DNA of 64,000 bases from Methylacidimicrobium sp. AP8 (lineage in GTDB: Bacteria; Verrucomicrobiota; Verrucomicrobiia; Methylacidiphilales; Methylacidiphilaceae). Location: assembly GCF_903064525.1 (NCBI RefSeq), contig NZ_LR797830.1, positions 434,001-498,000 of the forward strand, in the 5' to 3' direction. The translations under genes were made by a program, and so were the position numbers. Shown here in pieces: positions 4,576-47,293 of this stretch (positions are counted from its first letter, which is position 1; every line of letters starts with the position of its first letter). The notes beneath the pieces are model-generated. The model was given only the letters and a program-made list of their open reading frames with translations, had not been told where the DNA came from and did no database searches.

Positions 4576-6471
4576 ATGTCCTTCCCCAACCCTGGAGCCG
4601 TCGTCAAAAAGGCCGCTTTTCACCAAACATGGGCCGGTAGGCGCGGGGTGAACGTCGTCGGCGACCGGAACCTCTTCGAGATCTTTTGTGCCGCTCGGCC
4701 CAGCGACGTCGCTCTTCTGGCCATGTTTGCCGCTGAACCGCGGGATGGGCTCTGCGCGGAGGGCCTGATCTTGGAGGGAAACGGGGGCTCGCTCTACACT
4801 TTGGGTGCCCTGGCGGACGAAAGCCCGTCCGGAGAGATTCACTTCTTGAAGGCGGCGGGCAGTGGATGGCCGGGCCGTCTTCTTCGCCGCTTTCCTTTTT
4901 CCCGGGCGAAACCCTGGATCGTACTCCTGGAAAGGAGCGGGGACCCGGGGGAGGAGCAGAAGGCCATCGGGGAGGAGTTTCTTCTCTCTCGGGGGTATGC
5001 TCTCATCCGCTCGGACGGCCACAGCCGCTTCTATCTCGCGCGGGAGCGGTCGGAGAAGAGGGCGTGGCTGGAGGAGGGCGTCGGCGCGGGCGACGATTTC
5101 ATTCCCTTCCGTCATGCGGAGGAGATCAAAGGGCTCCGGAGGGAGCGGGCGGAGCTGCTCCGGCTGACGCAGCGGCTTTCCCAAGAAAACGAGCGATTCC
5201 ACCGGGCGCGGAGCGCGAGCCCCCTGCGGCGGCTGGAGCGGAGGATGCGCGGCATGTTTCGCCGGAAGCCCCACGGCGAGAAGGAAGAGCCGTTGCCGCC
5301 GATTCCCCGGGAGGCTACGGCGGTGGGGGCATTGGAGGTGCGCCGTCTTTCGGGAGTAGGGAGGTATGGGGACCGGTTGCCCGGGAAGCCGCGCATCCTG
5401 GTCCTGCAGCTCGACCATATCGGGGATTTCGTGTCAAGGCTGCCGGCATTCGGCCTTTTGCGCTCGCTCTGGCCGGAAGGGGAAATCGACCTGATCTGCG
5501 GTCCCTGGAACCTCCCCCTGGCCAAGCGGTGCGGCCATTTCCAGCGGATCCTCTCCTTTTGCTTCTTTCCGGCGGAATCGGGCGATTGGAGGCCGAGTCC
5601 GCCCAAGCTGCGGCGGATCGGGTCGGATTTCGCCGCGATCGCCCGCGGCCTGGGCGAGTACGATCTCGCGATCGACCTGCGGATGGGAACCGAGACGAGA
5701 TTTCTCCTGGGGTTCGTCCGGGCGAGGCTCCGGGCGGGATTCTCGGCTCCCGAGGCCGATGTCTTTCTGGACATTGCCCTGCCGGATCCCCGGGTCTTTG
5801 CTCCCGGGGAGAAGAACCGGCATGGGCTCAACTGGGAGATTTCGGCCCTCCTGCTCGTCCGCGCGGTGGAAGCGGCCGTGGTGCCGGCGGCGGCTCCTCC
5901 GCGGGAGAGGCCGCGAGGAGCACCAAGGCCCGAGCGCTTGGTCGCGGTCGCCCCGGGGGCGGGAAGCACGGCCCGGCAGTGGAGCGTCGGCCGCTTCTCG
6001 GAAGTCTGCCGGAAATTGGCGGAGGAGCACCAATGCTCGATCCTGCTACTGGGCGGCGCGGGCGACCGAAGGGATGCCGAGCGGATCGCGCAGGGCATCC
6101 CCTCGGAGCGCTGCCGCAACCTCGTCGGCGAGGTCGGCCTTGAGGAGCTTCCCCGGTATCTCGCCGAGGCGCGGGTGCTGGTCGGCAACAATTCAGGCGT
6201 GAGTCATATCGCGGCTTCCCTCGCCGGCATTCCCGTGGTGATCCCCTATTCGGGCACGGTCGACTTCCGGGTCTTCCATCCGGTGGGGGAAAGGGTGAGC
6301 GTGCTCCGCGTTCCCACCTCCTGCTCCCCCTGCTCTCTCTTGCGGGCGGAGGAGTGCCCCTATGCGATGGCCTGCCTGGAGAGCATCCCCCCCGATGCGG
6401 TGATCCGGGAAGTGCTCTTTTGGCTCGGGGAAGAGGCCGGCTCGGATGAAGAGCCGTCGCGAGGCCGATGA
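4576..6471 (+). CDS. Glycosyltransferase family 9 with degenerate FkbM-like N-terminus
   Basis: Probable heptosyltransferase-type (GT9, GT-B fold) enzyme of surface glycan synthesis, 631 residues from the ATG at 4576. Residues about 275-625 are the GT9 domain: ILVLQLDHIGDFVSRLPA opens it, VAVAPGAGSTARQW is the nucleotide-binding region, and VGNNSGVSHIAASLAGIPVV matches the C-terminal GT9 signature. Residues about 95-165 resemble the tail of an FkbM methyltransferase (HFLK...KPWIVLLE...SRFYLARER), but the SAM-binding start is absent and the KVD motif of the paralogue at 19415-21562 is lost. A charged linker with coiled-coil potential (about 175-225) joins the two parts. The gene starts 10 bases beyond the decayed IS, so the missing FkbM half may have been removed with that insertion. 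The methyltransferase part is probably inactive; the GT9 part looks intact. Confidence 0.82.
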   Translation: MSFPNPGAVVKKAAFHQTWAGRRGVNVVGDRNLFEIFCAARPSDVALLAMFAAEPRDGLCAEGLILEGNGGSLYTLGALADESPSGEIHFLKAAGSGWPGRLLRRFPFSRAKPWIVLLERSGDPGEEQKAIGEEFLLSRGYALIRSDGHSRFYLARERSEKRAWLEEGVGAGDDFIPFRHAEEIKGLRRERAELLRLTQRLSQENERFHRARSASPLRRLERRMRGMFRRKPHGEKEEPLPPIPREATAVGALEVRRLSGVGRYGDRLPGKPRILVLQLDHIGDFVSRLPAFGLLRSLWPEGEIDLICGPWNLPLAKRCGHFQRILSFCFFPAESGDWRPSPPKLRRIGSDFAAIARGLGEYDLAIDLRMGTETRFLLGFVRARLRAGFSAPEADVFLDIALPDPRVFAPGEKNRHGLNWEISALLLVRAVEAAVVPAAAPPRERPRGAPRPERLVAVAPGAGSTARQWSVGRFSEVCRKLAEEHQCSILLLGGAGDRRDAERIAQGIPSERCRNLVGEVGLEELPRYLAEARVLVGNNSGVSHIAASLAGIPVVIPYSGTVDFRVFHPVGERVSVLRVPTSCSPCSLLRAEECPYAMACLESIPPDAVIREVLFWLGEEAGSDEEPSRGR

Positions 6472-39047: not shown

Positions 39048-39281
39048 GTGAAGTTGAGTGTCTGGGCCAAGCGGCAGGGCGTCTGCTACAAGACGGCTTG
39101 GCGGATGTGGAAGGAGGGGCGTTTGCCCGTCCCGGTCGAGCAGTTGCCGACAGGAAACGAGAGGACCGATGACATCGTGCGCGACCTGCACGAGGTCATC
39201 GTTTCGATGTGTGCCAGGCTTTACGGGAAGCGATCCGCCCGGAACCGCGCCGAGAAGGCGCTCAAAGCGATCCATGAGTAA
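39048..39281 (+). pseudogene. IS607 serine transposase (TnpA) fragment
   Basis: A 77-residue reading frame fusing the two ends of TnpA: the MerR-like DNA-binding start (MKLSVWAKRQGVCYKTAWRM) through PVEQLPTG, then directly TDDIVRDLHEVIVSMCARLY and the C-terminal helix. Comparison with copy 2 shows that the segment coding for the catalytic serine (VALYARVSS) and most of the resolvase fold is deleted, in frame. Not catalytically competent. The frame ends at TAA 39279-39281, overlapping the tnpB start. Confidence 0.85.
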
Positions 39282-40926
39282 GCTTCCTGTTTTCACCTAC
39301 CAGACCCGGTTGAGGTTGACGCATGAGCAGACTTCGTGTCTTGACGCCTATGCGGCGCTCTACGGGCGGGCGCAGCGGACTCTTTTCGCCAGGATGCGGG
39401 CGGGCGTTCCCCTGAACGAGCTCAAGCGGTCGTTTCTGCGCCGATTCGGCCTCACCGCCCGGCAGTTCAACGCCATTCGGGTCGAGCTTGAGGGCAAGAT
39501 CGCCTCGATCCGGGAAAGGCGGCCCGAGTTGATCGAGGAAGCCAAATGGCGGATCCGGAAAGCGGAAGAGGCGGTCGGCCGGCTGGAGGAGAAGAAGCCG
39601 GGATCGAATGTCGTGCACCAGAAAAAGCGGCGGCTTGCCGTCCTGCGGGCGAAGCTCGAGGCGCTTCTGGCCGATCAGGAGTCCGGCCGGGTCCGGCTCT
39701 GTTTCGGTTCCCGACGCCTCTTCCGCAAGCAGTTTGCCCTGGAAGAGAACGGCTATGCGGACCATGCCGCATGGAAGAAGGATTGGCAGTCGGAGCGGAG
39801 CAGCCAGTTCTTCGTGCTCGGATCGAAGGACGAGACATCGGGCAACCAGTCCTGCCAAGCCGCAGTCGCTCCGGACGGCAGCCTGCGGCTGCGGTTGCGG
39901 CTGCCGAACGGATTGGGAAGCACGAGCAAACACCTGGTGCTCGAGGGCGTGCGCTTGGCCTACGGCCAGGAGGAAATCCTCCAGGCCCTCTCCGCCGGCC
40001 GGGTCGTGACCGCACAAACCAAGACGGGGAAGCTCTTCCGCAAGCGGGAGGGAGCTGCCGTGAGCTACCGCTTCGTGCGGGACCGGAAGGGGTGGCGGGT
40101 ATTCGCAAGCGTCGAGGCGCAACCGGTTGCCCTGGTGACACGCCGCCTTGCCGGAGCGATCGGCGTTGACATCAACCCGGATCATCTTGCCTTGGCCGAA
40201 ACGGATCGCTTCGGGAATCTCGTGGGAATCCGCCGGATCGGATTGCATCTCTATGGGAAGAGCGAGGAGCAAGCGAAAGCCAGAATCGGCGATGCGTGCC
40301 GGCAGATCGCCCGGGCCTGCGCCGAATCGGGCAAGCCGCTCGTGATCGAGCGATTGGATCTTCGCAAGCGGAGGGCCGAGCTGGAGGCGGTCGATGGCGT
40401 CCGGGCTCGCTCGCTCTCTTCCTTCGCCTACGCCAAGACGATCTCCATGCTCAAGGCGGCTTCCTTTCGCGCCGGAGTCGAGGTGATCGAAGTCGACCCG
40501 GCCTACACTTCCGTGATCGGCGCGGTCAACCACGCGCGCCGTCATGGCATCGGTTCTCACCAGGGCGCGGCCTACGCCGTCGCCCGGAGAGGATTGGGCC
40601 TATCCGAGCGCCCGTCCGTGCGGGAGGCGGTCGTGCCGACCCGCAATGGCGGCCATGTCACCTTCGCCCTACCCGCGAGGAATCGGGCGAAGCATGTATG
40701 GTCGTTCTGGGCGGACGTTCGGAAGGGGCTCAAAGCGGCGCATGCAGCGCATGCCCGGTCGGGAGGCAATCGCTTGCCTCCCGCGCCTCTGTCCCCGAAA
40801 TCGCGGGCATTGGGCGCTACCCGGGCTTTGCCGGCGAAACCCCGGCACGCGAACCGTCGGCAACACTGTTCGGCCGACGTCCTGGACGATCTCCCCTGGC
40901 AGGGGAATGGTTGTCTATGGTTTTAG
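39274..40926 (+). CDS. tnpB: TnpB-related RuvC-like protein of IS607 element
   Basis: A 550-residue accessory protein of IS607/IS605-type elements; studied TnpB proteins are RNA-guided nucleases that favour element retention. The ATG at 39274 overlaps the tnpA stop. The N-terminal half is basic and helical (TYQTRLRLTHEQTSCLDAYA, FLRRFGLTARQFNAIRVEL). The RuvC-like core has GVDINPDHLALAETDRFGNL (first Asp) and KPLVIERLDLRKRRAEL (Glu). The third motif reads SVIGAVNHARRHGIGSHQGA with AAYAVARRGLGLSE, lacking the usual Asp. No CxxC zinc ribbon is visible. This belongs to the divergent H.GAA...ARRG group. The C-terminal codons reach almost to the element end, where a guide RNA would be expected to arise. 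Confidence 0.85.
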   Translation: MSKLPVFTYQTRLRLTHEQTSCLDAYAALYGRAQRTLFARMRAGVPLNELKRSFLRRFGLTARQFNAIRVELEGKIASIRERRPELIEEAKWRIRKAEEAVGRLEEKKPGSNVVHQKKRRLAVLRAKLEALLADQESGRVRLCFGSRRLFRKQFALEENGYADHAAWKKDWQSERSSQFFVLGSKDETSGNQSCQAAVAPDGSLRLRLRLPNGLGSTSKHLVLEGVRLAYGQEEILQALSAGRVVTAQTKTGKLFRKREGAAVSYRFVRDRKGWRVFASVEAQPVALVTRRLAGAIGVDINPDHLALAETDRFGNLVGIRRIGLHLYGKSEEQAKARIGDACRQIARACAESGKPLVIERLDLRKRRAELEAVDGVRARSLSSFAYAKTISMLKAASFRAGVEVIEVDPAYTSVIGAVNHARRHGIGSHQGAAYAVARRGLGLSERPSVREAVVPTRNGGHVTFALPARNRAKHVWSFWADVRKGLKAAHAAHARSGGNRLPPAPLSPKSRALGATRALPAKPRHANRRQHCSADVLDDLPWQGNGCLWF

Positions 40927-41537
40927 GAACGGCATCGACCATTGGCGCGGAGACGAGCAGGCGGGGGAGTACGGGAGCGAAGTGCTCGAGGATCTGCGAC
41001 GGCACCACGACCCCCGATACGGCGGCTTTTCCCGGCTGCTGCGGGAGAGCTTCGAAGAGGCCCTCCCGCGCTTTGCCAAGGGATCGATCGACCTTTTGCA
41101 CATCGACGGCCTCCACTCCTACCAAGCGGTCCGCCGGGACTTCTGCTCGTGGCTCCCCCGCGTCAGCGTCCGGGGGGTGGTCCTGCTCCACGACGTCGCC
41201 GTCCGGCGGGAGGGTTTCGGCGTCTGGAGGCTCTGGGAGGAGGTCTCCAAGAGAGTATCCCTCCCGTGTCGTGCGCAACGGGTTCGGCTTGGGAGTGGTG
41301 GCCGTGGGGCAAAATCCCGAGCCGTCGGTGCGCGACCTGCTCGCTCTCCCCTGAGTCCCGGTGGCAGGCCTTGGAACGGCTCTGGGAGGCATTGGGCCAG
41401 GCGAACGAGCACCGTTGCTCCGGATCCGGGGAACCGAAGGGCCTCCGGTTTTGGTTGACGCGGAGGTTCTTCCGGAAAGGAGGCGGGTAGCTGCGGGGGG
41501 CGGGCCGGCCGCCCTCCGGCCGGGGCCTAAGAAAGCA

Positions 41538-41564
41538 GAAGGGCGGACCGGGAGTCCGCCCTTC
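41538..41564 (-). terminator. Hairpin terminator of the membrane-protein gene
   Basis: Perfect 11-bp stem GAAGGGCGGAC/GTCCGCCCTTC with a 5-base loop. On the minus strand it is followed by TGCTTTCTT. It is 25 bases downstream of the minus-strand stop at 41589. The plus-strand side (41355-41537), after the methyltransferase remnant, holds no recognisable gene. Confidence 0.8.
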
Positions 41565-41588
41565 ACGGGATATGGCACAACCCAAATT

Positions 41589-42107
41589 TTAGGCGCGCTC
41601 GGCCTCGTCCCGGTCGCGCCCCTCCGCGATCCACGGCGGGATCGCGAAGAGGAGAGCTATGGCCGGAGCCGCCGCTGCGGTCTTCAGGGCCAGAACCGGG
41701 GTGAGCGCGGGATGCCCCGGAGTGGCCAGCACGACGGCAAGCTGCCCGATCCACGCCAGGCCGACGAAGGCCGGAAGGAGAAGATAGGGCCAGCGGATCG
41801 CGCGCCGGGCGAGGAGCACGTAGGCAAAGCTCGCCTCGACCAACACCGCCAGGACCGCCAGGCTGCGGGGATAGCCCTCGGTGACCCACCGCTGCACGAA
41901 GGTCCCGTCCGCGCCGGGCCAGCGGAAGAGATCGTAGAAGAAGGCGGCCGCGGCCGGCAGCGAAACCAGCAGCAGGGTCAAGGCCGCCAGCCAGAGCCAC
42001 TGCGTCAGCCGTACGGCCGGTCCGCCGGGCCGAAGGTCCCGCCGGGGCTTCGGCAGAGCCGTGGCGGCTTCGGTTGTCGTTTTGGTCGTGTCGTATTGGG
42101 CAATCAT
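41589..42107 (-). CDS. Four-helix membrane protein of unknown function
   Basis: 172 residues from the ATG at 42107, chosen because AAAGGAG precedes it by about 6 bases. After a polar N-terminus there are four hydrophobic segments: LWLAALTLLLVSLPAAAAFF, SLAVLAVLVEASFAYVLLA, PYLLLPAFVGLAWIGQLAV and LKTAAAAPAIALLFAIPPW. The layout resembles small DoxX-like or DUF-type inner-membrane proteins, but no signature is certain. It is transcribed away from the CPICK/TonB receptor genes, sharing the AT-rich control region. Confidence 0.72.
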   Translation of the reverse strand: MIAQYDTTKTTTEAATALPKPRRDLRPGGPAVRLTQWLWLAALTLLLVSLPAAAAFFYDLFRWPGADGTFVQRWVTEGYPRSLAVLAVLVEASFAYVLLARRAIRWPYLLLPAFVGLAWIGQLAVVLATPGHPALTPVLALKTAAAAPAIALLFAIPPWIAEGRDRDEAERA

Positions 42108-42351
42108 CGTTACTCCTTTATAAGCGAACCGCATACAGGGTTAATTATGTGCCATACATTATGATAGCTTTTGCTATAGGCAAGAAAAAAAAGTATGCGC
42201 ATAGCTTATGATAAGAGCAAAGCCGCCGTCTTTTCGGGTGCGCCCGGGGGCAGCGGAGGACGGGCTCGAGCGGCTTTGCTTGGGAATCCGGTAAGAAAAA
42301 ACCCGAAAAGCCGTTGACAGAAGGCGGCGATTCGTGTAACGACTCCGCTTG
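42108..42351. promoter_or_regulatory. AT-rich divergent control region with two palindromes
   Basis: Much lower GC than the surroundings. It contains ATAGCTTTTGCTAT (42164-42177) and CTTATGATAAG (42205-42215), both inverted repeats, plus an A-run at 42184-42191. Located between the membrane-protein start (42107) and the CPICK start (42352), it probably holds both promoters and an operator. No known operator consensus is matched with confidence. Confidence 0.55.
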
Positions 42352-42732
42352 GTGAGAAAAACGGGGATCCTGCTCGCCTTCCTGGCGGCCTGCCACCTCG
42401 CCGGGGGCCACTGGCTCTTCTGGCAGGGGGCCGCCTGGGCCGGGATGCTCCTCCGCTATGCGCACAGCTACGGGGTGGAGACCGGCTTTGCGATGACCTT
42501 CGACGGGAAGCATCCCTGCCCGATCTGCAAGAAGGTCGTCAAAGAAAAGAGCAAGGAGCATCAGAGCTCGCGGACCGAGCGGTCCCGGGACGAGCTCGGG
42601 TTCTTTTGCCTCTCCGCGGCTTCCGTTCTTCCCCCGCTGCTTCTCTCTCCGGAGAGGCCGCCGCTCGACCGCTTTTGTCCGGCGAGCCGCGCGGACCGTC
42701 CCCATTCCCCCCCTCCCCGGCGTCTGGCGTAG
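42352..42732 (+). CDS. Small protein with GKHPCPICK motif
   Basis: 126 residues from the GTG at 42352 (TTG at 42349 also possible). Residues about 5-30 are hydrophobic (ILLAFLAACHLAGGHWLFWQ), a signal or anchor. The central part carries FDGKHPCPICKKVVKEKSKE. The C-terminal part has a hydrophobic stretch, LSAASVLPPLLLS, then DRFCPASRADRPH. Similar short proteins with a single CPxC after an N-terminal helix occur in Verrucomicrobiota near metal-uptake genes; I recall the pattern, not a named family. It precedes the TonB receptor by about 120 bases on the same strand, where no other gene is seen. A metal-related role is inference. Confidence 0.65.
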   Translation: MRKTGILLAFLAACHLAGGHWLFWQGAAWAGMLLRYAHSYGVETGFAMTFDGKHPCPICKKVVKEKSKEHQSSRTERSRDELGFFCLSAASVLPPLLLSPERPPLDRFCPASRADRPHSPPPRRLA

Positions 42733-42853
42733 CTAGGGCGCCGGCCGCGGCCGGCCTGCGCCGGGACGATTCCGGGCTCGCGTAGGCCTTGGGCCGCTCC
42801 GGGTTCCGGCGCTAGGAACGCGAACGTCAACTTTTCAACCCTGGGGAGGGAGT

Positions 42854-45658
42854 GTGCACAAGAAATTGCTGCGGCCTGATGAGGCTGCGCGGATGCTGAG
42901 TGTAAGCCGCTGGACGGTCTACCGCTGGGTGGGCGAGGGGCGGCTGGAAGGAACAAGGGTAGGACCCGGATCGCTGCGGGTCTTCGCGGAGTCGGTCGAT
43001 CGGCTGATCGACGGCAACCGGGTAGGGGAGTCGGCCGGTCGACCGCCGGGCCGGAGGGGCTCCAAGGGCGGGCGGTGTCTTGCCGCGGTCCTGGGCTTCT
43101 GGCTGCTCGTCCACGGTCCGCTTTGGGCGCAGCTCCCGCCCGAGGTCGATCCGCCCGCCGACGTTTCGGGTGCTTCCGGAGGGTCCGGGACAAAGGCGGC
43201 CGCGGCCTTGCCGGAGCGGGCGCCCGAGTCGACCATGGCGCCGGTCACGGTGAAAGCGGCCTACGACGTCCCCCAGATGCTGCCGACCGCGGCACCCACC
43301 GACTCGGTCTACGGGATGCCGATGGATGTGATGGACATCCCCCGGCAGGTCACGCCGATCAACAAGACCCTCATGGAGGAGGCGGGGATCAACGCGCAGG
43401 GCGGCTACGTGAACCCGATCAGCTTTGCGATGATCAACCCGACGGCCTTCGGCGGAGTCGATGCCTGGATCTCCCCGTCCCCGTATATCCGTGGAGATGC
43501 CGCCCTGCCGTTCATCAACGGGATGGCGATGAGCGTGATGAACGTCGAGATGGTCAACTCGGGGCTCCCGTGGAACTGGAACATGGTCGAGTCGGTCGAC
43601 ATGGTCGAGGGGCCCGGAAACGCGGTCTTCGGCGCCGGGCAGGAATCCTCGGGCTATGTCAACTACGTCACCAAGCAGCCCTACTTCGACAAGTTCCGGG
43701 GCAACGCCTGGGGCTCGATGGGCATGTACCAGCAATACATGTGGGGCGGGGAGATGGGCGGGCCGATCGACAAGGAGCACAAGCTCGCCTACCGGCTGAG
43801 CTACATGGGGATCGAGAGCGGGAGCTGGTACCAGACGGTCCACAACGACCAGCAGAACGTCTACCTAGCCCTCGGCTGGAAGCCGGTCGACAACTACTCG
43901 GCCGACCTCTACGTCGATGCCGACTTCGCCTCCTTCTCCCCGATCGGCTACGCGGGCTTCAACCGGCCGACCAACGCCCTCTTCCAGAGCGGAGGCTCGC
44001 TCGACTATCTCGGCGCGCTCCCGCCTTCCCAGTGGGGAAGCGTTCCCTACTTTCAAAACTACTGGGCGGCGAACCCGGGGGCGCCGGTGGCACCCTCCCC
44101 CGTGGGGTTCGGCACCTACGGGGTCGGCTTGGGCCCGGTCAACCGGCGGCAGCTTTTGATGAGCCCCTATGCGCAGCAGACGGGCTATCAGGGGATGACC
44201 CAGCTCATCCAGAAGGTCCACGTCGACGAGGGGTTCGATCTGGTCAACAACACGCTGGTCTGGTATACCCGCCACGATGCGTTGAACCCCTCCTACCTTT
44301 ACGACGAGGCGGTGATGGGCGACTACGAGGTGGACAACCGGACCGAGTGCCGGCTTGCCTTCGACACCCCCGTCGGCGGGAGCGGGTCCGGGCAGGGAGA
44401 AAAGGCTCCTTTTGCGATCTCGCACAACGTCGATACCGGCTTCGAATGGGTCTACCAGCGGAACCAGGACTACGTTTCGACCATGCTGATCAATGCGCCC
44501 AACATGTTCAGCCTGGCTCAGAACCCGATGCTCTGGGATGTCCGGAACACTCCCTATTTCCAGGCGGCGATCATGAATCCGAATGCGCCGGGAGGCGGAG
44601 AGTGGCCGATTCCCAACGGTCCGGCCGGCTACTACTTCGAGCCGCTCAACGGGACCACCGGCACGACCGACTCGCAGTACTGGGCGCTGGCCCCGTTCTG
44701 GCAGCATGTCATCAACTTCGGCGAGAAGCTGAGCCTCCAGTACGGGCTTCGGGCGACGACCTACCTCATCAATGCCCAGACGCCTCCGGGAACGCCGCCG
44801 ATGCTCTCCACCCAGCTCCAGACCTCGATGATCGACCCGCTCTTCTCGATCGGGCCGGTCTACAAGCCCTTTCCGTGGCTGAGCCTCTACGGGAACTTCA
44901 ACTACGAGTATGTGACCGCGGCGGCCGACATGGGGGGCTTCGTTCCGACGCAGACTTCGCAGGAGATGCATCTGCTCAACGAGCTCGGGGAGGTGGGTGC
45001 CAAGTTAAGCCTCCTCCACGACAAGCTCTATCTGTCGTTTGCCTTCTTCCACCAGAACCTCTACATGGACCAGATCGGCTTCCCCCCGAATCCTGGGCTG
45101 CTCCAGGGCTTCGAGTACAACATGACCTACCAGCCCGATCGTCACTGGTGGTTCCGGGCGGGCTACGCCTATATGCATGGCACCTGGAACTTTTCCTCGC
45201 TTCCCTATGGTCCGAGCCAGACCCAGAGCTATTCGACCGGCTACGCGTTCCGGCACAACCTGCCGCTCGACGACAACGGGACGGCCGTCGCTCCGGTCAA
45301 CGTGTCGGGGATCCCCGGGATCTACGACTGGATCGGCCTGCCCAACCAGACCGCCAACGCGATGGTCACCTACCGGACCGACTTCGGCCTTTCGCTGACC
45401 GCCTCGGCCCTGGTGATGAGCAGCTACCCGCTCTTCTACAACTATACCGCAGTGGTGCCGACCCAGTACGTCACCAACCTGAGTGTTACCTACCAGAAGA
45501 ACAATTGGAGCCTGACCGTCTATCTTTGGAATACCCTCAACTCGGTCTACTGGCTGCCGTACGCCAGCGGGCTGGCCTCCGACGTCGCCTCCAACTCGGA
45601 CTATGTCGCGGCCGGCTGGCCGTTCTGGATCCAGGGGACGCTGAGCTACCAGTTCTAA
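42854..45658 (+). CDS. TonB-dependent receptor with N-terminal excisionase-type helix-turn-helix
   Basis: A 934-residue protein in one uninterrupted frame. The GTG at 42854 follows GGGGAGGGAG. Residues 1-57 are an excisionase/HTH_17 DNA-binding domain (LLRPDEAARMLSVSRWTVYR, then WVGEGRLEGTRVGPGSLRVF). A basic linker (RPPGRRGSKGGR) leads to a hydrophobic signal segment, CLAAVLGFWLLVHGPLWAQ, at about 76-95. The plug domain is at about 120-280 (VDMVEGPGNAVFGAGQES, then SGYVNYVTKQPY). The 22-strand-type barrel runs to IQGTLSYQF with terminal Phe. No ATG, GTG or TTG lies between the HTH and the signal segment, so the receptor has no start of its own after the HTH. Probable outer-membrane uptake receptor, ligand unknown; the role of the HTH is unexplained. 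Confidence 0.85.
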   Translation: MHKKLLRPDEAARMLSVSRWTVYRWVGEGRLEGTRVGPGSLRVFAESVDRLIDGNRVGESAGRPPGRRGSKGGRCLAAVLGFWLLVHGPLWAQLPPEVDPPADVSGASGGSGTKAAAALPERAPESTMAPVTVKAAYDVPQMLPTAAPTDSVYGMPMDVMDIPRQVTPINKTLMEEAGINAQGGYVNPISFAMINPTAFGGVDAWISPSPYIRGDAALPFINGMAMSVMNVEMVNSGLPWNWNMVESVDMVEGPGNAVFGAGQESSGYVNYVTKQPYFDKFRGNAWGSMGMYQQYMWGGEMGGPIDKEHKLAYRLSYMGIESGSWYQTVHNDQQNVYLALGWKPVDNYSADLYVDADFASFSPIGYAGFNRPTNALFQSGGSLDYLGALPPSQWGSVPYFQNYWAANPGAPVAPSPVGFGTYGVGLGPVNRRQLLMSPYAQQTGYQGMTQLIQKVHVDEGFDLVNNTLVWYTRHDALNPSYLYDEAVMGDYEVDNRTECRLAFDTPVGGSGSGQGEKAPFAISHNVDTGFEWVYQRNQDYVSTMLINAPNMFSLAQNPMLWDVRNTPYFQAAIMNPNAPGGGEWPIPNGPAGYYFEPLNGTTGTTDSQYWALAPFWQHVINFGEKLSLQYGLRATTYLINAQTPPGTPPMLSTQLQTSMIDPLFSIGPVYKPFPWLSLYGNFNYEYVTAAADMGGFVPTQTSQEMHLLNELGEVGAKLSLLHDKLYLSFAFFHQNLYMDQIGFPPNPGLLQGFEYNMTYQPDRHWWFRAGYAYMHGTWNFSSLPYGPSQTQSYSTGYAFRHNLPLDDNGTAVAPVNVSGIPGIYDWIGLPNQTANAMVTYRTDFGLSLTASALVMSSYPLFYNYTAVVPTQYVTNLSVTYQKNNWSLTVYLWNTLNSVYWLPYASGLASDVASNSDYVAAGWPFWIQGTLSYQF

Positions 45659-45747
45659 GCTCCGGAGCTTCCCGCGGATTGCTTACAAAAAAATGCTTTA
45701 CTTCCGGCTCGGCGGCAGTCCTTTACTACAGGACATAGCGTTCGAGT

Positions 45748-46626
45748 GTGAAAGCGGGCTCGATGCGGTGCCTCCTGGCGGGGCTGGCGGCGGCGGCCGG
45801 GTGCCTGATTCCCGCCGGCGGCTTTTCGGCACCGGTGCGGCAGTTTTCCACGGTGCTGCTCGACCCGGGCCACGGGGGCACGGATAACGGGGGCATGAGC
45901 CGGCCGCTTCCGGGCGGACGGCTCTTGGAAAAGGATCTGGCGCTTGACACGGCGAGTCGGGTGGCCCGGATCCTGCGGGCGGAGGGCTTCCGGGTCGTGA
46001 TGACCCGGACCGATGACCGATTCGTCGATCTCGACGAGCGGGTGAAGATGGCCAACCGGCTCGGCCGCGGGGCGGTGGCGGTCAGCATCCATTACAACGC
46101 CACCGGGGATCGGAGCATCCGAGGGGCGGAAACCTACTTCTGGCATGCGGACAGCCATGGGTTGGCCACCCGCATCGAGCGCCGTCTTGCCGCAGTGAGC
46201 GGGGAGAGCCGGCGGGGAGCGGTCATCCGCCGGAGGCTGCGGCTCACCCGCAATCCGACGATTCCCGCCGTTCTTGTCGAATGCGCCTATCTGACCAACG
46301 CCGGCCAGGCGCGGCTGGTGGCGCAACCGGAGGTGCGCGAGCGGATCGCCCGGGCGATCGCCGAGGGGATCGCGGAGGAGGCGCGCTTCGGGGACGAAGG
46401 GATCGCGGCCGTGCCGGAAATCTGGGCGCCGCTCTCCCGCGCCTCGGATGCGCGGTCGCGGACCGCCGCGAAGCATTCCCATCGGAAGCGGCACGGGAAG
46501 CGGCGGGCGAAGGTCGCCGGCGGCGGGGAGTGCGGCCCAGGCGAGCCGCTTCAGATCATCCGGCCGGGGGCGGCCGGCGCTCCGCCGGGGCCTCCGGTGC
46601 CGGCGTCGAAGGCGGAGAGGGCTTGA
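45748..46626 (+). CDS. N-acetylmuramoyl-L-alanine amidase (Amidase_3)
   Basis: Zinc amidase that removes the peptide from MurNAc in peptidoglycan; 292 residues from GTG 45748, or 287 from the ATG at 45763. A signal peptide (CLLAGLAAAAGCLIPAGGFSA) is followed by the catalytic domain at about residues 35-220. Zinc ligands appear in LLDPGHGGTDNGG (His), EKDLALDTASRVA (Glu) and AVSIHYNATGD (His), with catalytic Glu in PAVLVECAYLTNAGQARLV. The C-terminal 60 residues are basic and histidine-rich, then proline-rich, without a known domain. Its 3' end overlaps the convergent lipoprotein gene by 71 bases. Confidence 0.9.
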   Translation: MKAGSMRCLLAGLAAAAGCLIPAGGFSAPVRQFSTVLLDPGHGGTDNGGMSRPLPGGRLLEKDLALDTASRVARILRAEGFRVVMTRTDDRFVDLDERVKMANRLGRGAVAVSIHYNATGDRSIRGAETYFWHADSHGLATRIERRLAAVSGESRRGAVIRRRLRLTRNPTIPAVLVECAYLTNAGQARLVAQPEVRERIARAIAEGIAEEARFGDEGIAAVPEIWAPLSRASDARSRTAAKHSHRKRHGKRRAKVAGGGECGPGEPLQIIRPGAAGAPPGPPVPASKAERA

Positions 46627-47293
46627 GGCCGGAGACGCCTCCCGCCTTTTCGGCGGACGCAGGCGCGGATTCGTCGGCGGTCCGGACATACTGGACCAGG
46701 AGAGGTCCGGCTTCGGCGAGGATCTGCTGGAGGCCCGCGTTCCAACCCTGCATGAGGGCCGAAGGGCTCCGCTCCCGGATGGGGACGCGGCGGACGATGG
46801 TCTGCTCCCAGAGAGGAGTCCCCGGGGGAACTTGGGTGACCAGGAAGCGCAGAGCGATCACCGCCTCCGGCTGCCGGCCGGGCCGGAAGTCCCCGTAGAG
46901 CTGCCGGACGGAGACGTCCGCAAAGGAGCGGGTCATGACCGCGCTCCCCGCGCCGACGACCGCCCGGAAGAGCCCCGAGGCCTGGAGCCGGTCGCTGATC
47001 GCGGTGCGGATCAGCAGGTCCGGGGCGGAGAGGAAGTGGGCGTAGGGGTCCCGCTCGTAGCGGTAGTCCGCGGCCCGGTAGACGAAATCCTCGCCCGAGA
47101 ATGCGGGTGCGACGCGGACCGAGCGGAGGACGAGGACCGGCCGGGAAGCATCCTGCTTCGCGGGAAAGCCGGTGGCCGGGGAGAAGGCGAAGGATTCGGA
47201 TGGGAGGCGGGCCGGGCGGCTCATGCAGCCGAAAAGGGGAAGGCAGAGCCAGAGGAGGAAAAGGGGCCGGGCGGCCGCGGTGCGGCCTCTCAT
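46556..47293 (-). CDS. ABC-type transport auxiliary lipoprotein (PqiC/YmbA-like)
   Basis: A 245-residue outer-membrane lipoprotein. The signal ends in the lipobox LPLFGC (Cys about 23). The mature domain includes PVLVLRSVRVAPAFSGEDFV, FVYRAADYRYERDPYAHFLS, LLIRTAISDRLQASGLFRAV and RQLYGDFRPGRQPEAVIALR, the pattern of the DUF330/ABC_trans_aux family. It is the last gene of the Mla-type operon and overlaps the mlaD stop by four bases. The proline-rich tail beyond residue 210 overlaps the amidase gene on the other strand. Confidence 0.8.
   Translation of the reverse strand: MRGRTAAARPLFLLWLCLPLFGCMSRPARLPSESFAFSPATGFPAKQDASRPVLVLRSVRVAPAFSGEDFVYRAADYRYERDPYAHFLSAPDLLIRTAISDRLQASGLFRAVVGAGSAVMTRSFADVSVRQLYGDFRPGRQPEAVIALRFLVTQVPPGTPLWEQTIVRRVPIRERSPSALMQGWNAGLQQILAEAGPLLVQYVRTADESAPASAEKAGGVSGLKPSPPSTPAPEAPAERRPPPAG

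Follow-up and report, generated by a model that had tools for sequence, protein, structure and literature searches.

The gene analysed here lies in a 64,000-nt stretch of the Methylacidimicrobium sp. AP8 genome (contig NZ_LR797830.1, positions 434,001 to 498,000), referred to below as the window. It encodes a protein in which a small winged helix-turn-helix (HTH) domain is followed by a linker, a signal helix and a TonB-dependent receptor (Table 1).

Table 1. Features of the HTH-receptor locus (positions in the window).
Feature	Position	Strand	Remarks
Small membrane protein, HPCPICK motif	42349..42732	+	directly upstream of HTH
Ribosome-binding site, GGGAGG region	42842..42853	+	kept before GTG in 7/7 genus genomes (alignment)
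Fused gene: BldC/Xis-type HTH + linker + signal helix + TonB-dependent receptor	42854..45658	+	934 aa, GTG start
Winged HTH domain, residues 5-55	42866..43018	+	HTH_17, TIGR01764, predicted fold, invariant residues
Linker, residues 58-75	43025..43078	+	five Lys/Arg, predicted disordered
Signal helix, residues 76-92	43079..43129	+	hydrophobicity and AlphaFold2 model
Mature receptor	43130..45655	+	plug and barrel by homology
N-acetylmuramoyl-L-alanine amidase (Amidase_3)	45748..46626	+	downstream of receptor; Pfam

The fused gene and its parts

The frame runs through 934 codons without interruption. Its GTG start sits behind GGGGAGGGAGT, a good ribosome site, and upstream of it no in-frame start codon is found back to the next stop. 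Within the gene, in-frame ATG, GTG or TTG codons occur at codons 5, 14 and 26, all inside the HTH, and then none until codon 119, which lies beyond the signal helix. Together with the profile matches and the receptor homology described below, this bears out two statements of an earlier sequence-only reading: One frame joins HTH, signal-like helix and receptor, and the interval between HTH and helix lacks an ATG, GTG or TTG codon. The HTH-receptor fusion is probably a real but unusual arrangement.

Residues 5-55 match the Pfam profile HTH_17 with 33.8 bits (curated cut-off 27) and residues 6-50 the 'excise' profile TIGR01764 with 34.7 bits (curated cut-off 28.8). By the definition of invariance, all 15 positions invariant in a 28-row HTH alignment are present in the HTH of the window. 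Structure prediction of the N-terminus had been suggested previously, and an AlphaFold2 model of residues 1-130 yielded a confident winged HTH at residues 1-57 (block means of pLDDT 90-97 up to residue 50), a low-confidence, apparently disordered linker at 61-75 and a helix at 76-93. In a Foldseek search, the nearest structures were the phage Xis protein 4J2N (target TM-score 0.83) and Streptomyces BldC 6AMA (0.86), and the E-values, 1e-3 to 1e-2, were modest, as is usual for a domain of 50 residues. The HTH resembles these small winged-HTH proteins (BldC, PMC5859096; mycobacteriophage Pukovnik Xis, 4J2N) in fold, domain size and recognition helix, and neither they nor the fused HTH carry an effector domain. 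According to the title of PMC5859096, BldC forms cooperative multimers on direct repeats. The known BldC/Xis members are soluble, free-standing proteins of about 60-100 residues, whereas the fused HTH forms the N-terminal end of a precursor for an exported receptor.

Of all 15-residue stretches in the protein, the one starting at residue 76 is the most hydrophobic. The hydrophobic helix 76-92 thus comes after 75 residues of protein and ends in a predicted signal peptidase site, A92/Q93 (LWA/QLPP), which was picked by inspection. A TonB-box-like stretch, ESTMAPVTVKA, follows near residues 125-135. Residues 121-906 align with annotated TonB-dependent receptors at 24-25% identity (E 2e-27), and weak FoxA/FhuA profile matches fall into the same part. 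Neither a Pfam Plug nor a barrel domain matched the fused protein at the limits used, a PDB sequence search with the receptor gave no match, and an AlphaFold2 model of the full-length protein, built from an alignment of eight rows only, reached a pLDDT of 28. A paralogue (L022) scored 22.9 bits with the Plug profile, just below the cut-off of 23.9. The receptor family is divergent, and its identification as a receptor with a barrel rests on full-length homology without a domain match.

Fused and separate versions in Methylacidimicrobium

Seven genomes of the genus (G000 to G006) were compared. G000 is the genome of the window, a single 2.30-Mb contig; among the others are Verrucomicrobia bacterium LP2A (G001), M. 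cyclopophantes 3B (G004), M. tartarophylax 4A (G006) and two Sandtown MAGs (G002, G003). An HTH of this subfamily is present in exactly one copy in all seven, always directly before this receptor, so that no free-standing spare copy exists. The upstream gene and the downstream amidase are the same in the six relatives as in the window, and the order HTH/receptor - amidase is kept across the genus.

When the order HTH, signal helix, receptor was sought in these relatives, as the sequence-only reading had proposed, it recurred: Four of the seven genomes (G000, G001, G003, G005) carry the in-frame fusion, with a short linker in G000 and G003 and one about 60 residues longer in G001 and G005. In the remaining three (G002, G004, G006), HTH and receptor are separate genes. 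There, the HTH frame closes after 74-75 codons at a TGA which overlaps an ATG of the receptor frame (ATGA). Candidate starts of the unfused receptor are an ATG at +221/+224 or an ATG at +338; in G002 and G006, the second ATG is located 117 nt downstream, right before the signal peptide. Relatives whose receptor has its own start codon had been named beforehand as evidence against a fusion. They do exist in these three species, but not in the four fused genomes, and unfused sister species do not undo the fusion in G000, G001, G003 and G005.

Two types of junction can be distinguished. In G000 and G003, about 200 nt including the HTH stop codon have been lost, and the linker of the window marks the site where the approximately 200-nt spacer and the stop codon of the unfused relatives are missing. 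In G001 and G005, two bases and the ATGA are lost. A sequencing or assembly error that joins two frames is scarcely credible. Three sister genomes do have two frames, but the same fused frame as in the single contig of the window's genome is found in three other genomes, two of the four fused genomes are single-contig assemblies, and no single-base error gives two junction types with a deletion of about 200 nt in two genomes. The indel which the sequence-only reading had considered as a possible cause was discarded on these grounds.

The unfused relatives also bear on a second alternative, by which one frame yields two products: Synthesis of the receptor would begin, additionally or exclusively, at an internal non-standard codon (ATT, ATC or CTG) close to the signal helix, and drop-off or degradation would terminate the HTH chain. 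Re-initiation would keep the old logic of the unfused relatives, whose receptor has its own start, and in the window an SD-like GGAGGGG precedes the signal helix. However, no in-frame start follows this motif, G000, G001 and G005 have no in-frame ATG, GTG or TTG between HTH and helix, which excluded a later standard start codon for their receptors, and the linker of G001 and G005 looks coding. In G003, two in-frame GTG codons are present, one at codon 57 that lacks a ribosome site and one within the signal helix. A non-standard start (ATC or CTG near the end of the HTH) is possible, without positive support, and the two-product alternative as a whole is improbable.

In the outgroup genus (G008), the HTH stands alone as a gene of 73 residues, directly preceded by an orthologue of the same upstream gene, the HPCPICK protein, and no receptor follows. 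In an rpoB tree, the unfused G004 forms the first branch of the genus (support 82/98), the fused G003 is sister to the unfused G006 (100/100), and G000 groups with G001/G005 (85/99). The free-standing HTH is the likely ancestral state because outgroups carry only short free HTHs and the rpoB tree places the unfused G004 first. As judged by junction type, the fusion arose at least twice. In the receptor tree, G000 joins G003/G006 (95/98), and G000 and G003 have the signal peptide HGPLWAQL in common, unlike the other genomes. The shared signal peptide and the receptor tree suggest that recombination may have carried the short junction from one lineage to another. Since three sister species and all outgroups have the HTH as a gene of its own, the fused gene is, by this comparison, a unit merged from two genes and does not belong to a receptor family in which an HTH is an original component. 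We infer that the gene of a locally acting HTH regulator at a TonB locus was joined to the adjacent gene when a stop codon was lost or a deletion occurred.

Substitutions were compared between pairs of genomes; these pairs are not independent, and G001 and G005 are too similar for an HTH test. Between the fused HTHs of G000 and G003, 15 synonymous and 9 non-synonymous changes were counted over 46 and 125 sites (P 2.7e-4 against neutrality). Most other HTH pairs, fused or not, agree with purifying selection; the weakest are G003-G001/G005 and G003-G006 (P about 0.02). For the receptor, dN/dS is 0.08-0.22, so that this half of the gene evolves under purifying selection too. The long fused linker differs between G001 and G005 by 6, 10 and 14 changes at the three codon positions (dN/dS 0.34), a third-position bias that is weak with 30 changes, whereas the unfused spacer (9, 10 and 10 changes, dN/dS 0.77) looks non-coding. 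The substitution pattern thus indicates that purifying selection on the HTH persists in the fused state, which argues against a mere inert n-region.

This result concerns a third alternative, a neutral merger. Here, the fused HTH would be inactive on DNA, serve only as a long n-region and be kept because the clean start of the receptor was lost. Other secreted proteins with long n-regions are known, the fusion came by simple deletion or stop loss, and the HTH of G003 has more amino-acid changes towards G001/G005 (11 of about 22) than other pairs. On the other hand, purifying selection acts on the HTH in the fused genomes, the recognition helix and wing are intact, and G001 and G005 have the same HTH protein sequence but different linkers. 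Weakened by the selection data, a neutral merger is rather unlikely.

HTH relatives outside the genus

The nearest relatives of the HTH beyond the genus come nearly all from Nitrospira and Methylomirabilis (55-71% identity). Among 148 Nitrospirota genomes, 27 contain such an HTH (47 matches), and none of the 47 lies in an open frame above 206 aa. These free-standing proteins are the closest sequence family and share the TonB-linked neighbourhood with the fused gene but, unlike the HTH in the four fused Methylacidimicrobium genomes, are never fused in the 47 matches. In a search of 388 Verrucomicrobiota genomes, this HTH subfamily was confined to G000 and G008, apart from one weak match.

Among the HTH relatives in Nitrospira, six of 12 genes in six genomes are located within 4 kb of a receptor plug domain, compared to 0.3 expected (P about 2e-7; distances were read by hand from two tables). 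A receptor, TonB or ExbB is present in 34 of 45 full 12-kb HTH loci, a raw count without matched random-locus control, and Pfam matches of the genes downstream of HTH relatives include receptors, ExbB and TonB. Several relatives overlap the next gene, which encodes an exported protein, by 4 nt. In view of their position near TonB, ExbB and receptor genes, the HTH family most plausibly comprises regulators that act locally on loci for TonB-dependent uptake. Small BldC/Xis-like HTH genes are therefore likely local regulators of TonB uptake in Nitrospira, Methylomirabilis and methane-oxidising Verrucomicrobiota, which have high needs for iron, copper or rare-earth metals. In the open-access literature, no paper was found that links small BldC/Xis-like HTH proteins to TonB-dependent uptake.

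Eight Nitrospira HTH genes with the 4-nt overlap (L088, L100, L106, L111, L117, L126, L128, L129; near 6001-6300) are paired with open frames whose products are exported; one family of 354 aa has a signal peptide, and another of 478 aa a weak amidohydrolase match. G012 contains many near-identical HTH_17 frames of 170-211 aa, which probably encode recombinases of an IS607-type element.

The HTH might also be the excisionase of an integrated mobile element that landed before the receptor. Its match to TIGR01764 ('excisionase family') and a TnpB-like gene 2 kb upstream in the window fit such an origin. Against it stand the same location in seven species, the same upstream gene in G008, the Nitrospira relatives in TonB clusters and the absence of a visible integrase nearby; moreover, the TnpB-like gene is unmatched at this place in the genus members read. 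A mobile-element origin is accordingly very improbable. The TnpB-like gene itself (39058-40926) has a weak Cas12f1-like TNB match. The open frame 40544-41458 contains a Methyltransf_24 domain, and the corresponding gene region of G002 and G006 shows no TnpB match; the TnpB-like gene appears to interrupt a methyltransferase gene.

Closer to the fused gene, the small membrane protein with the HPCPICK motif has no Pfam match; it may belong to the same metal-uptake unit as HTH and receptor. Upstream of the HTH, conserved blocks exist, but nothing links them to the HTH and no operator was found. Inverted repeats are present there in some genomes and differ between them. An Rfam search of positions 41000-47000 gave nothing.

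Proposed working of the fused protein and comparison with known systems

On balance, we favour a scheme in which the regulator gene of a TonB uptake locus has merged with the receptor, and a single precursor, by predicted translation, cleavage and DNA binding, leaves an HTH remnant that regulates its own locus. The whole gene would be translated as one precursor, and the HTH would fold in the cytoplasm, where it would amount to an n-region of exceptional length. Entry into the Sec pathway, with the N-terminus staying inside, would be mediated by helix 76-92 together with the linker rich in Arg and Lys. After cleavage by signal peptidase I near A92/Q93, the receptor would proceed to the outer membrane, and an HTH of about 92 residues with a C-terminal membrane helix would stay behind at the inner membrane, on its cytoplasmic side. 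Alternatively, the HTH remnant could be freed by intramembrane proteolysis. In either case it would be made 1:1 with the exported receptor, and it would most likely bind and regulate the DNA of its own locus, as presumed for the free-standing HTH in the relatives. An attractive consequence would be that the quantity of tethered regulator tracks the export of the receptor. A folded HTH ahead of the signal helix may slow export.

A more specific version is a polyprotein of regulator and receptor, in which cleavage frees the tethered HTH 1:1 and reports receptor export, or export failure, to its own promoter. We put this forward only tentatively. If true, it would couple transcription to secretion without any separate sensor.

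The precursor shares properties with two known types of system. As in signalling TonB-dependent receptors of the FecA/FpvA type (STN domain, FecR, sigma factor), the receptor is physically tied to gene regulation. These receptors, however, have a periplasmic STN domain and act via FecR and a sigma factor, whereas the fused protein has a predicted cytoplasmic DNA-binding domain and no STN match; its neighbours are the small membrane protein and the amidase and not FecR or sigma factor genes. Membrane one-component regulators of the ToxR/CadC type combine a cytoplasmic HTH, one membrane helix and an exported C-terminal part, and the fused precursor would look alike if it remained uncleaved. ToxR and CadC belong to another HTH family (OmpR-type wHTH), while the fused HTH falls into the HTH_17/MerR-like group and hence outside the ToxR/CadC-like proteins. 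Furthermore, their membrane helix is not cleaved, whereas the fused protein has a cleavable-looking signal peptide and its C-terminal part is an outer-membrane receptor.

In the open-access literature, no paper was found on a DNA-binding domain that heads an outer-membrane receptor precursor. The fusion is built from known parts and is not a new kind of system; as far as the literature search reaches, it is undescribed. As sister species have fused and unfused versions, it is directly testable how the merger affects regulation and export.

The divergent receptor family is expanded in Methylacidiphilaceae, with about 9-18 matches per genome in G000 to G012 except G008; some copies are broken. 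Other receptors of this family with long upstream frames (1043-1293 codons) were considered as further fusions, and none shows this HTH. In L166, L167 and L169, an in-frame start codon is present a short distance ahead of the signal peptide, and the frame upstream of it appears to be spurious. In L168 (G012:C1:1242815-1245163), a truncated receptor-like stretch is joined to a second receptor in a frame of 1293 codons, possibly a recombined or decaying tandem pair.
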